This document shows, piece after piece, positions 34,638 to 41,075 of a stretch of DNA of 63,408 bases. Position 1 is the first letter of the stretch; each line of letters starts with the position of its first letter. Under the pieces are notes generated by a model. It saw only the letters and a program-made list of their open reading frames with translations, was not told where the DNA came from and ran no database searches. The DNA comes from Gemmatimonadetes bacterium bin94 (GTDB lineage Bacteria > Gemmatimonadota > Gemmatimonadetes > Longimicrobiales > Gaopeijiaceae): positions 1-63,408 of the forward strand of contig MPNE01000023.1 of assembly GCA_002238865.1 (NCBI GenBank), given 5' to 3'. A program made the translations under genes and the position numbers.

Positions 34638-35149
34638 TGACGAACTCCCGCCCGATCGTTGCGGTGTACCCGGGCTCCTTCGACCCGGTGACGCTTGGCC
34701 ACGAGGATGTGGCGCGCCGCACCCTGCGCTTCTGTGACCGCCTGGTCGTCGCTGTCGCCGAGGCATCCACCCAGGAAAAGCGGCACATGTTCCCGGTCGC
34801 CGAGCGGCTCGAAATCATGAAGGAGGTCTTCGCAGGCGACCCGAGGGTCGAATGCGTCTCGTTTTCCGGCCTTCTCGTCGAGTTTGCCGCGGACGTGGGG
34901 GCGCGGTTCATCATCCGTGGGCTGAGAGCCGTCTCGGACTTCGACTATGAATTCCAGATGGCTCAGATGAACCGGGAGTTGCGCGATGATGTTGAGACCC
35001 TGTTCCTGACGCCGGATATCCACTTTTCCTTCCTGTCCGCGTCGCTGGTCCGGGAGGTCGCGGCTCTCGGGGGTGACGTGAGCGCCTTCGTCTCCGCTCC
35101 GGTGCGGGAACGGATGCGGCGGCGCTTCGCGGGTCCCGGATCCGCGTGA
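34637..35149 (+). CDS. coaD: Pantetheine-phosphate adenylyltransferase
   Basis: Fourth-stage enzyme of coenzyme A synthesis, joining 4'-phosphopantetheine and ATP. 170 residues, with the nucleotidyltransferase motif YPGSFDPVTLGH near the start, IIRGLRAVSDFDYEFQMA in the middle, and the SASLVRE signature. ATG overlaps the rsmD stop. The next gene, a phosphotransacetylase, overlaps its end by 4 nt. Confidence 0.96.
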   Translation: MTNSRPIVAVYPGSFDPVTLGHEDVARRTLRFCDRLVVAVAEASTQEKRHMFPVAERLEIMKEVFAGDPRVECVSFSGLLVEFAADVGARFIIRGLRAVSDFDYEFQMAQMNRELRDDVETLFLTPDIHFSFLSASLVREVAALGGDVSAFVSAPVRERMRRRFAGPGSA

Positions 35150-36054
35150 GGCGCGGGAGCTTCACCCGCGAGCTGGAGGCGCGAGCCCGACGCGCCAAGC
35201 GCAGGATAGCCTTCCCCGAGGCGGACGATTCCCGGATCGGCGAGGCTGTGTCCCACCTGGCCCGGCGTGCTATCGTCCGCCCGGTGCTCGTCGCGGACGC
35301 GGCTGCTCCACGTGCGGCTCGCGGCGAAGCCGGGGTCGAGATCGAGGTGACCACCGATGCTTCACCGCTTCAGCGAGCCGTGGAGATGCTCAACGACGGA
35401 GCGGTCGACGGGGTCGTCGCCGGGGCGGTGCACACGTCGGCCGACGTGATCCGGACGGGGTTGCGGCAAGTGGGACTCAGGCCCGGTGTCCGAACACTGT
35501 CGTCGTGCTTCTTCATGGAGGTGGACGACTTTCGCGGCCGCGGATCCGAAGTGCTGACCTTCACCGACGCCGGAGTGGTAACCGACCCGGGTCCGGGCCG
35601 GTTGGCCGAGATTGCCACGGAGGCGGTCCGGGTACGGCGCCGGGTCGTCGGCGACGAGCCGCGCGTGGCGTTTCTGTCGTACTCGACCCGGGGCAGCGCG
35701 GGAGGCAAGTCGGTCAGGCGGGTCAAGGAGGCAGTCGCCCGCTTCCGGGAAACCTGCCGGGAGGTGATCGCGGACGGCGAGTTGCAGGCCGACGCGGCTC
35801 TGATCCCGGGGGTGGCGCACTCCAAGGCGCCTGACTCGGCGGTAGCGGGGAGGGCGAACGTACTTGTCTTCCCCGGTCTCGACGCCGGCAACATCGCGTA
35901 CAAGCTGGTGCAGAGGCTTGCCGGGGCGTTGGCGCTGGGGCCCATACTGCAGGGGCTGAAGGCACCCCTCAACGACCTCTCGCGCGGGGCGTCGCCGGAG
36001 GACATCGTATACGTTGCCGCCATTACGGCGCTGATGGCCGACAAGAGCAAGTAG
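35146..36054 (+). CDS. pta: Phosphate acetyltransferase (short Pta/EutD-like form)
   Basis: Interconverts acetyl-CoA and acetyl phosphate. 302 residues, the catalytic domain only, without the long N-terminal part of E. coli Pta. Supporting segments are RIAFPEADDSR, DGVVAGAVHTSADVIRTGL, FLSYSTRGSAGG and FPGLDAGNIAYKLVQRL. GTG start overlapping the coaD stop. No ackA is next to it, so the phosphate acceptor or donor step is elsewhere. A phosphate butyryltransferase-type specificity cannot be excluded. Confidence 0.88.
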   Translation: MRRGSFTRELEARARRAKRRIAFPEADDSRIGEAVSHLARRAIVRPVLVADAAAPRAARGEAGVEIEVTTDASPLQRAVEMLNDGAVDGVVAGAVHTSADVIRTGLRQVGLRPGVRTLSSCFFMEVDDFRGRGSEVLTFTDAGVVTDPGPGRLAEIATEAVRVRRRVVGDEPRVAFLSYSTRGSAGGKSVRRVKEAVARFRETCREVIADGELQADAALIPGVAHSKAPDSAVAGRANVLVFPGLDAGNIAYKLVQRLAGALALGPILQGLKAPLNDLSRGASPEDIVYVAAITALMADKSK

Positions 36055-36095
36055 TGTACAATAGTTCTGTACATAATGTACAATCTGTATGTACA
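36055..36095 (+). promoter_or_regulatory. Symmetric four-copy TGTACA operator-like array
   Basis: The palindromic hexamer TGTACA occurs at 36055, 36068, 36077 and 36090, with gaps of 7, 3 and 7 nt, so the whole array is symmetric about position 36075. The stretch is clearly AT-richer than its surroundings and begins right after the pta stop codon. It ends 4 nt before a -35-like hexamer, the normal place for an activator or a cooperatively bound regulator. The protein that binds it is unknown. Confidence 0.6.
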
Positions 36096-36098
36096 CAT

Positions 36099-36127
36099 TT
36101 ACCGGGGCACTTCGCGCGCCTTATCTT
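36099..36127 (+). promoter_or_regulatory. Predicted promoter of the STAS-kinase/phosphatase pair
   Basis: TTACCG (36099-36104) and TATCTT (36122-36127) with 17-nt spacing. The -10 has the TAnnTT form seen at other promoters in this window. It would give a 5' leader of about 55 nt before the STAS gene. Confidence 0.45.
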
Positions 36128-36189: not shown

Positions 36190-36519
36190 ATGTCCTTCAA
36201 CCTGAGAAAAGTCGCTAACGTCACCGTGGTCGAAGTCGACGGACAACTCATCGTCGGAAATCGCCAGGATCTGAAACAGAAGGTCCTGGCCGAACTGGAG
36301 GGCGGCGCCGGCAGCTTCGTGATCGACTTCTCACGGACCGGCTACATCGATTCGTCGGGTCTCGGTGTCCTGGTCAGCCTCTCCAAGAGGATCCGTGAGG
36401 CGGGTGGCGAGCTGAGGCTGATTTCGCTGAACGAGGACCTGCGGACCCTCTTCGAGTTGACCAAGCTCCACACGCTTTTCGAGATCCGGACGACCCTGGA
36501 GGAGGCCCTGGCGGGATAG
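36190..36519 (+). CDS. STAS-domain anti-sigma factor antagonist
   Basis: 109-residue SpoIIAA/RsbV-like protein. The phosphorylation site is Ser56 in YIDSSGLGVLV; the VVEVDGQLIVGNRQDLK strand-helix and the C-terminal LFEIRTTLEEAL are typical. When unphosphorylated, such proteins bind an anti-sigma kinase and free its target. The ATG at 36190 is preferred over an in-frame GTG at 36181 because GAGA lies just before it. The next gene encodes both a kinase-like and a phosphatase domain, so this is very likely its substrate. Confidence 0.9.
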   Translation: MSFNLRKVANVTVVEVDGQLIVGNRQDLKQKVLAELEGGAGSFVIDFSRTGYIDSSGLGVLVSLSKRIREAGGELRLISLNEDLRTLFELTKLHTLFEIRTTLEEALAG

Positions 36520-36525
36520 CAGGCC

Positions 36526-38592
36526 GTGGAAGAAGTCCCCGGTGTACGACCCCCCATGAGCGAGTCATCGCGCCGCCGGGGCAGTTCGACGGCAGTGGCG
36601 AGGACCGTCTTCCACGTTCCCGGCGACGTCGGCGAAATCGAGCCCGCGGTCGATCGCGCGGTGGAGTGTTGTGCCGGTGCCCGCCTGGACCGGCGGCGTC
36701 TTCTCTTCAACTTCCGCGTCGGGCTGACGGAAGCCGTTTCCAACGCGATTCTCTTCGGCAACGCGAACGATCCCGACAGCAAGGTGCGGGTGGAACTGCT
36801 CGTCGAGCCCGGCACGGTGCGTGCCCGGGTTACCGACGAGGGGCGCGGATTCGACCCCGAGGCCGTGCCCGATCCCCGACTCCCCGAGAACATTACCAAA
36901 CCGGCCGGACGGGGCATCTTCCTCATGCAGGCACTCATGGACGAAGTGCGCTTCAATGCGGCAGGCAATTCGGTCACGCTCGTGTTGCGGGAGAACCCGG
37001 ACGGCCTCGACGGGCAGGGACGGGCGGGTCCGGGGGCAATACCGCGTTCGCTTCCACCGGAGCACGTGACCGCGGTGCTGCGGGACTTCCACGAGGGACT
37101 GGGACTGGACGTACGGGCCTGGCGCACCGATGGCCGGGATCGGATCGCCTTCTTTCCCGACGGGGCGCCCGATATGCCGGACGCCGTCGGTCACCTCTTT
37201 CGGCTCGACCCCGGCGATGGCGCCGTCATCGAAGTCCAAATCGGAGGACATGGTCCGGACAGCCCGGTCGTGCAGGTGCTGGAGGGCACCCTCGAGCGGG
37301 CGTGCGGATTGGCGCGCCAGGCTGCGCGGCGCAGGGCCGAACTCGCGGAGCGCCGCGAGGAGATCGGGCTCCTCTACTCGATCAGCGAGACGCTGGCGTC
37401 GATTCTGCACCTGGACGAGGCCGCCCGCCGGATCCTGGAGGAGGTGTCGCGGGTGCTGGGAGTGAAGCGCGGCTCGCTCTGGGTTCACAGCCGGGACGAT
37501 GACCTGCTGCGCCTCGCCGCGTCCGTCGGGGGCGGCCTGCCGCGCAGCTCGATCCCGGTCGCGGACGAGACCTCGATCACCGCCCGGGCCTTCCGCGCGG
37601 AGCACCCGATCATGGCGGCTGGACACGAGATGGACAGCCCCGACACCGGTTCGATCCCGGCGAGCGAGCGGGAGAGCTGGCTCTCGGTGCCGGTCCGCTT
37701 CAGGCCGCACTCGGGCGCGGCGAGGACGGTGGGGGTGCTGAACCTCATCGGACGCCGGCGCCACGAGGAGTTCACACCTGCGGACCAGCGGCTCATGGTC
37801 GCCGTGGCGAATCAGATCGGCGCCGCCCTGGAGACCAATCGTCTCATACGGGAGAGCATGGCCCGGGAGCGGGTCTCGCGCGAAATGGAGCTGGCTCACA
37901 ACCTTCAGATGAAGCTCCTGCCTCCGGTTCCGACGATCCCGGGGGTGGAAGCCGCGGCCCGCGTGCTTCCCACCGAGTCGGTCGGCGGGGACTTCTACCA
38001 GGTCCTCCAGCTCTCCGGCGGGCGTATCGGCGTCATGATCGGAGATGTTTCGGGGCACGGGTTCCCGGCGGCGCTGATCATGGCGCTGGTCATGAGCGCG
38101 GCCGCGATCTATGCGGAAGAAGGGGCGGGACCCGCAACCGTCCTGGAGCACCTGGACCGCGCAATCGGCGACGAACTGGAGTCGACGGAGATGTTCCTGT
38201 CCCTCTGTTACTGCGTCCTCTCGCAAGGGGGTACCGAAGTCACCTACTCGAACGCGGGCCACCCCCACGCCTTCGTCGTCGAGCCGGGTGGGGCCGCGCA
38301 CCGGCTCCTTGCCACCGACCCCCCGATGGGCATCGGTGCGGCTCCCTACGGCGAATCCACCGTTTCCTGGACCCCGGGCGAGGATCTGCTCCTCCTCTTT
38401 ACCGACGGGCTGTCGGACACACTCGCGCAACTCCGCCGCAGCAGCGGTGAGGAGCTCGTGCTCAGGACCGTCGCCACGAACCACCGACGTCCGGTGTCCG
38501 AAATTCTGGGGCGCCTGTTCGAGATGTCCGTACAGGCAATCCCCTCCATGCCCTCCGACGACCGCACCGCCGTCGTCCTTCGCACTACCTGA
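36526..38592 (+). CDS. RsbW-like kinase, GAF and PP2C (SpoIIE/RsbU) phosphatase fusion
   Basis: 688 residues in three parts. Residues ~25-160 are a HATPase_c anti-sigma-type kinase with the N-box GLTEAVSNAILFGN, VTDEGRGFDP and AGRGIFLM. Residues ~285-445 are a GAF domain (IGLLYSISETLASILHLDEA to VGVLNLIGRR). Residues ~455-688 are a PP2C/SpoIIE phosphatase with metal residues in VGGDFYQV, IGDVSGHG, LFTDGLSDT and SDDRTAVV. Kinase and phosphatase normally sit in separate proteins of a partner-switch. The GTG at 36526 is 6 nt after the STAS stop; an ATG at 36556 is an alternative. No sigma factor gene lies nearby. Confidence 0.9.
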   Translation: MEEVPGVRPPMSESSRRRGSSTAVARTVFHVPGDVGEIEPAVDRAVECCAGARLDRRRLLFNFRVGLTEAVSNAILFGNANDPDSKVRVELLVEPGTVRARVTDEGRGFDPEAVPDPRLPENITKPAGRGIFLMQALMDEVRFNAAGNSVTLVLRENPDGLDGQGRAGPGAIPRSLPPEHVTAVLRDFHEGLGLDVRAWRTDGRDRIAFFPDGAPDMPDAVGHLFRLDPGDGAVIEVQIGGHGPDSPVVQVLEGTLERACGLARQAARRRAELAERREEIGLLYSISETLASILHLDEAARRILEEVSRVLGVKRGSLWVHSRDDDLLRLAASVGGGLPRSSIPVADETSITARAFRAEHPIMAAGHEMDSPDTGSIPASERESWLSVPVRFRPHSGAARTVGVLNLIGRRRHEEFTPADQRLMVAVANQIGAALETNRLIRESMARERVSREMELAHNLQMKLLPPVPTIPGVEAAARVLPTESVGGDFYQVLQLSGGRIGVMIGDVSGHGFPAALIMALVMSAAAIYAEEGAGPATVLEHLDRAIGDELESTEMFLSLCYCVLSQGGTEVTYSNAGHPHAFVVEPGGAAHRLLATDPPMGIGAAPYGESTVSWTPGEDLLLLFTDGLSDTLAQLRRSSGEELVLRTVATNHRRPVSEILGRLFEMSVQAIPSMPSDDRTAVVLRTT

Positions 38593-41009: not shown

Positions 41010-41075
41010 TTGTACATTTGATGGTCGACTGATTGCCGCGAGCCCGCCGCACCCCTGAACAGCGAGGCAAACTTC

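Follow-up and report, generated by a model that had tools for sequence, protein, structure and literature searches.

Analysis of the window, a stretch of 63,408 nucleotides from Gemmatimonadetes bacterium bin94, revealed an array of four TGTACA hexamers (36055-36060, 36068-36073, 36077-36082, and 36090-36095) with gaps of 7, 3, and 7 nt, which, judged by its sequence, belongs to the Phd/YefM class of antitoxin operators. The assignment to this class is based on the published core hexamer, on an array at an antitoxin gene on contig C25 of the same genome, on the pairs at seven of nine homologues of this gene, and on 21 of 29 paired sites in other genomes of the phylum. What is unusual is the spread of the operator: ten arrays are present here, versus a single pair in nearly all genomes of the phylum that have one. 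We consider it probable that the window array is such an operator and that the C25 antitoxin also represses the adjacent STAS/RsbU-type operon and the other genes next to arrays.

The array follows the formula TGTACA-N7-TGTACA-TAA-TGTACA-N7-TGTACA, and its first base is the one directly 3' of the pta stop codon (36052-36054). Its A+T content is 71%, compared to 40-44% in the 50 bp to either side, and the edges of this A+T island lie a few bases from the outer hexamers. No decayed extra hexamers were seen flanking the arrays. In 200 windows generated with a first-order Markov model, the biggest TGTACA cluster per 60 bp had one copy, versus four in the real array. The whole window has 14 copies of the hexamer versus 1.8 expected from dinucleotide shuffles; because a higher-order expectation already amounts to 8.7, single copies carry little meaning, and those elsewhere in the window are mostly coding by appearance. 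The single TGTACA at 41011, placed by the initial annotation before a thiolase gene, is indeed a solitary hexamer, located directly 3' of a stop codon, and two bases are mismatched at the position of its N8 partner.

Downstream of the array, Pfam identifies the STAS and kinase-phosphatase genes (Table 1), whose succession we take to represent a partner switch of the RsbV/RsbW/RsbU type. A homologue of the STAS gene is present in all 40 genomes compared, and the -10-like TATCTT of its candidate promoter is also found in genus mates. Regarding the overlap of operator and promoter, a sigma-70-like pair lies within the array, and the promoter common to genus mates is situated just downstream of it. 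The four copies with their gaps, the AT-rich island, the promoter-like pair next to it, and the STAS/kinase-phosphatase operon, all described by the initial annotation, are borne out.

Table 1. Features of the window locus, the C25 antitoxin gene, and genes neighboring the arrays elsewhere in the genome (window positions unless a contig is given).
Feature	Location	Strand	Description and basis
pta (phosphate acetyl/butyryltransferase) gene	35146..36054	+	stop codon abuts array
Four-copy TGTACA array	36055..36095	.	gaps 7-3-7; centre spacing 13, 9, 13 bp
Sigma-70-like pair inside array	36055..36084	+	TGTACA-18-TACAAT; consensus match only
Central TGTACA-TAA-TGTACA unit	36068..36082	.	identical in C37, C42, and C25 (other strand) arrays
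Candidate main STAS-operon promoter	36098..36127	+	TTTACC (36098), 18 nt, TATCTT (36122)
STAS-domain protein gene	36190..36519	+	anti-sigma-antagonist type; Pfam
Kinase-phosphatase gene	36526..38592	+	HATPase_c_2 (RsbW-like), GAF, SpoIIE (RsbU-like); Pfam
C25 antitoxin gene	C25:22265-22507	-	PF02604
C14 array neighbor	C14		molybdopterin oxidoreductase gene; Pfam-confirmed
C26 array neighbor	C26		metallo-beta-lactamase-like gene; label by eye
C34 array neighbor	C34		AraC-like ORF; label by eye
C37 array neighbor	C37		FAD-type ORF; label by eye
C42 array	C42		gap between 2-oxoacid dehydrogenase E2 and amidohydrolase genes, starts directly 3' of stop codon; Pfam-confirmed
C57 array neighbor	C57		beta-propeller gene; Pfam-confirmed
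C72 (window) array neighbor	C72		STAS operon; Pfam-confirmed
C80 array neighbor	C80		M20 peptidase gene; Pfam-confirmed

The assembly of this genome (4.4 Mb in 83 contigs, 97.5% complete) contains 17 TGTACA-N5..9-TGTACA pairs, 16 of them with N7-8 spacing, versus none for the reversed control. They correspond to ten arrays and to one N9 pair on contig C13, which was left out of the count of ten. Full four-copy arrays with gaps of 7/8-3-7/8 are found five times (C25, C26, C42, C72, which is the window, and C80), while those on C14, C34, C37, C45, and C57 have two or three copies. Chance or simple AT-richness is ruled out by this genome-wide count against the control and by the Markov windows. 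The alternatives of a random cluster in AT-rich DNA and of an RNA hairpin or terminator are accordingly given very little credit by us: the region can be folded into a nested hairpin of -17 kcal/mol, but the z-score of the fold is -1.4, and a terminator was looked for at the array and none found.

Using N8 spacing and allowing up to two mismatches, 35 matches, ten of them perfect, were obtained in the genome versus 25 in the control; a graded tail of weak sites is therefore hardly apparent. The perfection of the hexamers is partly due to exact-match searching, a bias limited by the mismatch scans. Since the hexamers are constant while the gap letters vary between arrays, the bases flanking the hexamers tend towards TTATGTACATAA, and weak near-matches are not above control, the arrays look, at the sequence level, like protein-binding sites kept by selection and not like recent copies of one sequence. 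A site for a cooperatively binding type of regulator, as suggested by the initial annotation, is supported, and it recurs in the genome. The same annotation had held that a lack of both conservation in relatives and other intergenic copies would suggest chance; many other intergenic copies exist in this genome, whereas conservation at the locus in relatives is absent.

In most cases, the array is located in the 5' region of a gene. Of the ten arrays, only that on C25 borders on an antitoxin gene; a Phd gene lies about 430 nt from the C37 array. According to Pfam, the genes adjacent to arrays share no obvious common function, which counts against the preferred explanation (some neighbors are labeled by eye, as indicated in Table 1, and an AbiE-like label was assigned likewise). 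The C45 pair also counts against it, being inside a coding region, an unusual place for an operator: in frame, the TGTACA pair takes the place of a loop in a conserved protein, with GPAIHMYRNYVHNSTWEQ in this genome versus, e.g., GPAIFLSPDGDEWEQ in orthologues that are 73-79% identical. Such a substitution favors the chief rival explanation, according to which the arrays are a small dispersed repeat without function, consisting of AT-rich TGTACA cassettes that multiplied by insertion and play no part in regulation here. The sharp A+T boundaries point in the same direction. Overall, we regard a dispersed repeat as unlikely, as hexamers and spacings stay constant while gap letters differ and 5' regions hold most arrays. 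A REP element mobilized by a RAYT/Y1 transposase was rejected, no IS200/Y1 (RAYT-type) transposase (PF01797) being found in the 97.5% complete genome.

A second recurring palindrome, TTTACATSATGTAATSTAGA-like, is present at C55:23355, C81:13905, and C52:44173 of this genome, where it precedes XRE-type regulator, PLP-dependent aldolase-like, and amidase-like genes; it looks like another small regulon.

The C25 array (gaps 8-3-8) stops 2 nt short of the ATG of a Phd/YefM-family antitoxin gene, whose product matches PF02604 with 40.3 bits, above the gathering cut-off of 29.8. The gene directly 3' encodes a PIN-domain (VapC-like) toxin (PF01850, 60.9 bits). Nine homologues of the antitoxin were read in other genomes of the family, and the eight that were aligned are 43-49% identical to it. 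In seven of the nine, TGTACA-N8-TGTACA, with a centre spacing of 14 bp, precedes the ATG by some 25-30 nt; the remaining two overlap the upstream gene and are without the TGTACA pair. Plasmid copies of the C25 antitoxin were looked for and none found.

The genome contains 13 matches to PF02604, eight of which were read. A YefM homologue on contig C1 is preceded by GGTACA-N7-TGTACG, showing that the N7 spacing is in use as well, and YefM-like genes of the genus carry the related pair GGTACA/CGTACA-N7-TGTACA. Another PF02604 antitoxin of this genome, or an unrelated factor, could be the binder instead, and the arrays would then be operators of a different DNA-binding protein using TGTACA, e.g., the C1 YefM-type antitoxin or an unrelated repressor. 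The N7 pair at the C1 gene would fit this, as would an AraC-like ORF (label by eye) following one array and a TGTACA pair in another genome (G411 C198:4397-4415) that lies 24 nt ahead of a ribbon-helix-helix-like ORF and not of a Phd gene. We find a different binder rather improbable: the 3-bp inner gap is present at the C25 antitoxin gene and absent at the C1 gene, and perfect arrays abutting the start occur at C25 only, among the eight Phd genes read.

Other layouts were observed as well. In four genomes (G010, G006, G013, and G007), a pair TGTACA-N18-TGTACA stands directly where Phd-family genes start, and the sequence between the hexamers is similar (in some cases AACCTAGCGTTATAGA-like); G004 has a similar pair as well. 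This appears to be another operator layout for the antitoxins of the genus. In the genus mate G007, a lipoprotein-like ORF is preceded by four TGTACA copies with the exact 12-bp spacing of YefM (C41:4737-4778), and no Phd gene was seen near it on this short contig.

Across the phylum, TGTACA-N7/8-TGTACA is matched in 42 of 395 genomes, nearly all of which have one match, compared to 16 in the present genome. In other genomes of the phylum, a Phd/YefM antitoxin gene starts 15-42 nt downstream of the pair at 21 of the 29 sites with sequence, 19 of them recognized with a profile built here and two by eye. That the same pairs are antitoxin operators elsewhere in the phylum argues against a dispersed repeat. 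Two relatives have pairs within a phosphate-binding-like gene (G007 C140 and G013 C105); these look like a coding coincidence and were discarded.

The four-copy array is present in none of the other genomes among 154 of the order, and in a scan of 84,980 species genomes, which may omit near relatives, it was found in Bacteroidota only. Some genomes of Prevotella, Paraprevotella, Tannerella, and other Bacteroidota contain many tandem TGTACA-N7/8-TGTACA-N3 arrays per genome, and the flanks are recurrent around several of them in one Prevotella genome. Such an abundance of tandem arrays, near which no Phd gene was found, would suit a dispersed repeat. Because no Phd gene is found in the stretches read, kinship with the Bacteroidota arrays was set aside, and we treat them as a separate phenomenon.

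In the comparison of orthologous loci, 29 relatives were found to have no TGTACA in the stretch preceding the STAS gene, the array ahead of the M20 peptidase gene is absent in relatives, and at none of the three places compared do genus mates have an array. The distance from the pta stop to TATCTT is 29 nt in three genus mates versus 67 nt here. As this difference of 38 nt is close to the 41-bp length of the array, the latter looks as if it had been inserted between the pta stop and a pre-existing STAS promoter. These absences and the matching lengths are also what a dispersed repeat would produce. Owing to the 83-contig assembly and to a comparison set without close relatives of this genome, the intergenic alignments are weak.

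In the preferred explanation, that of an antitoxin operator, the TGTACA palindromes would be occupied cooperatively, next to one another, by dimers of an antitoxin of the Phd/YefM family, probably along with its PIN toxin. The likeliest binder would be the C25 antitoxin, whose own gene has the same array, and its dimers may be bridged by the toxin as in phd-doc (PMC4803016). Copies of the operator would have come, in this species, to stand before about eight other genes and inside one, the window copy sitting between pta and the conserved STAS-operon promoter. There, the bound antitoxin would repress rather than activate the STAS operon, since both the promoter within the array and the stretch 5' of the -35 element would be covered. 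Simple occlusion of the STAS promoter is not given, since the array is upstream of the conserved -35/-10 pair. Under stress, the unstable antitoxin would be lost and the STAS operon released together with the toxin.

Antitoxins are usually viewed as local autorepressors, and to our knowledge few of them act on other genes. Only tentatively, and at somewhat less than even chances, do we propose that a toxin-antitoxin repressor has turned into a multi-gene regulator in one species, with its operator at about nine other loci including a STAS/RsbU-type general-stress operon, so that one protein would switch both toxin release and stress signaling. If true, this would physically link a toxin-antitoxin pair to a partner-switching stress pathway and offer a natural, testable case of how the repressor of a selfish module could gain a regulon.

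Among known systems, the best solved match of the C25 antitoxin is VapB46 of M. tuberculosis (PDB 6jqy), a weak sequence match (E 0.001) to its residues 5-44, i.e., the N-terminal part; VapB46 is named a VapB antitoxin, and the partner of the C25 antitoxin is likewise of the PIN (VapC) type. The tandem arrays of Bacteroidota share the 7/8-3 geometry and the large number per genome, but differ in their conserved gap letters, in the recurrent flanks of the one Prevotella genome, and in that the portions read contain no Phd gene. The array also resembles the yefM-yoeB and axe-txe operators, in which paired palindromes with the same core hexamer are spaced 12 bp between centres (PMC3920265, PMC7730913). 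The statement of the initial annotation that no described regulator matches is not supported, as paired TGTACA palindromes are known and such pairs directly precede Phd/YefM-family antitoxin genes in this phylum; the geometry does differ, with 7-3-7 or 8-3-8 gaps placing four hexamers at 13/14-9-13/14 bp instead of two at 12 bp. This spacing (13, 9, and 13 bp in the window) counts against the antitoxin-operator explanation. In addition, the C25 array is directly upstream of an antitoxin gene, whereas the window array has pta and STAS genes as neighbors and no toxin-antitoxin gene beside it. MqsA (PMC3920265) and DinJ (PMC4996492) of E. coli belong to other antitoxin families with other operator sequences, and the trans sites proposed here are predicted ones; these two antitoxins nevertheless provide the parallel for the proposed action on chromosomal genes away from the own operon, as both act on genes besides it.
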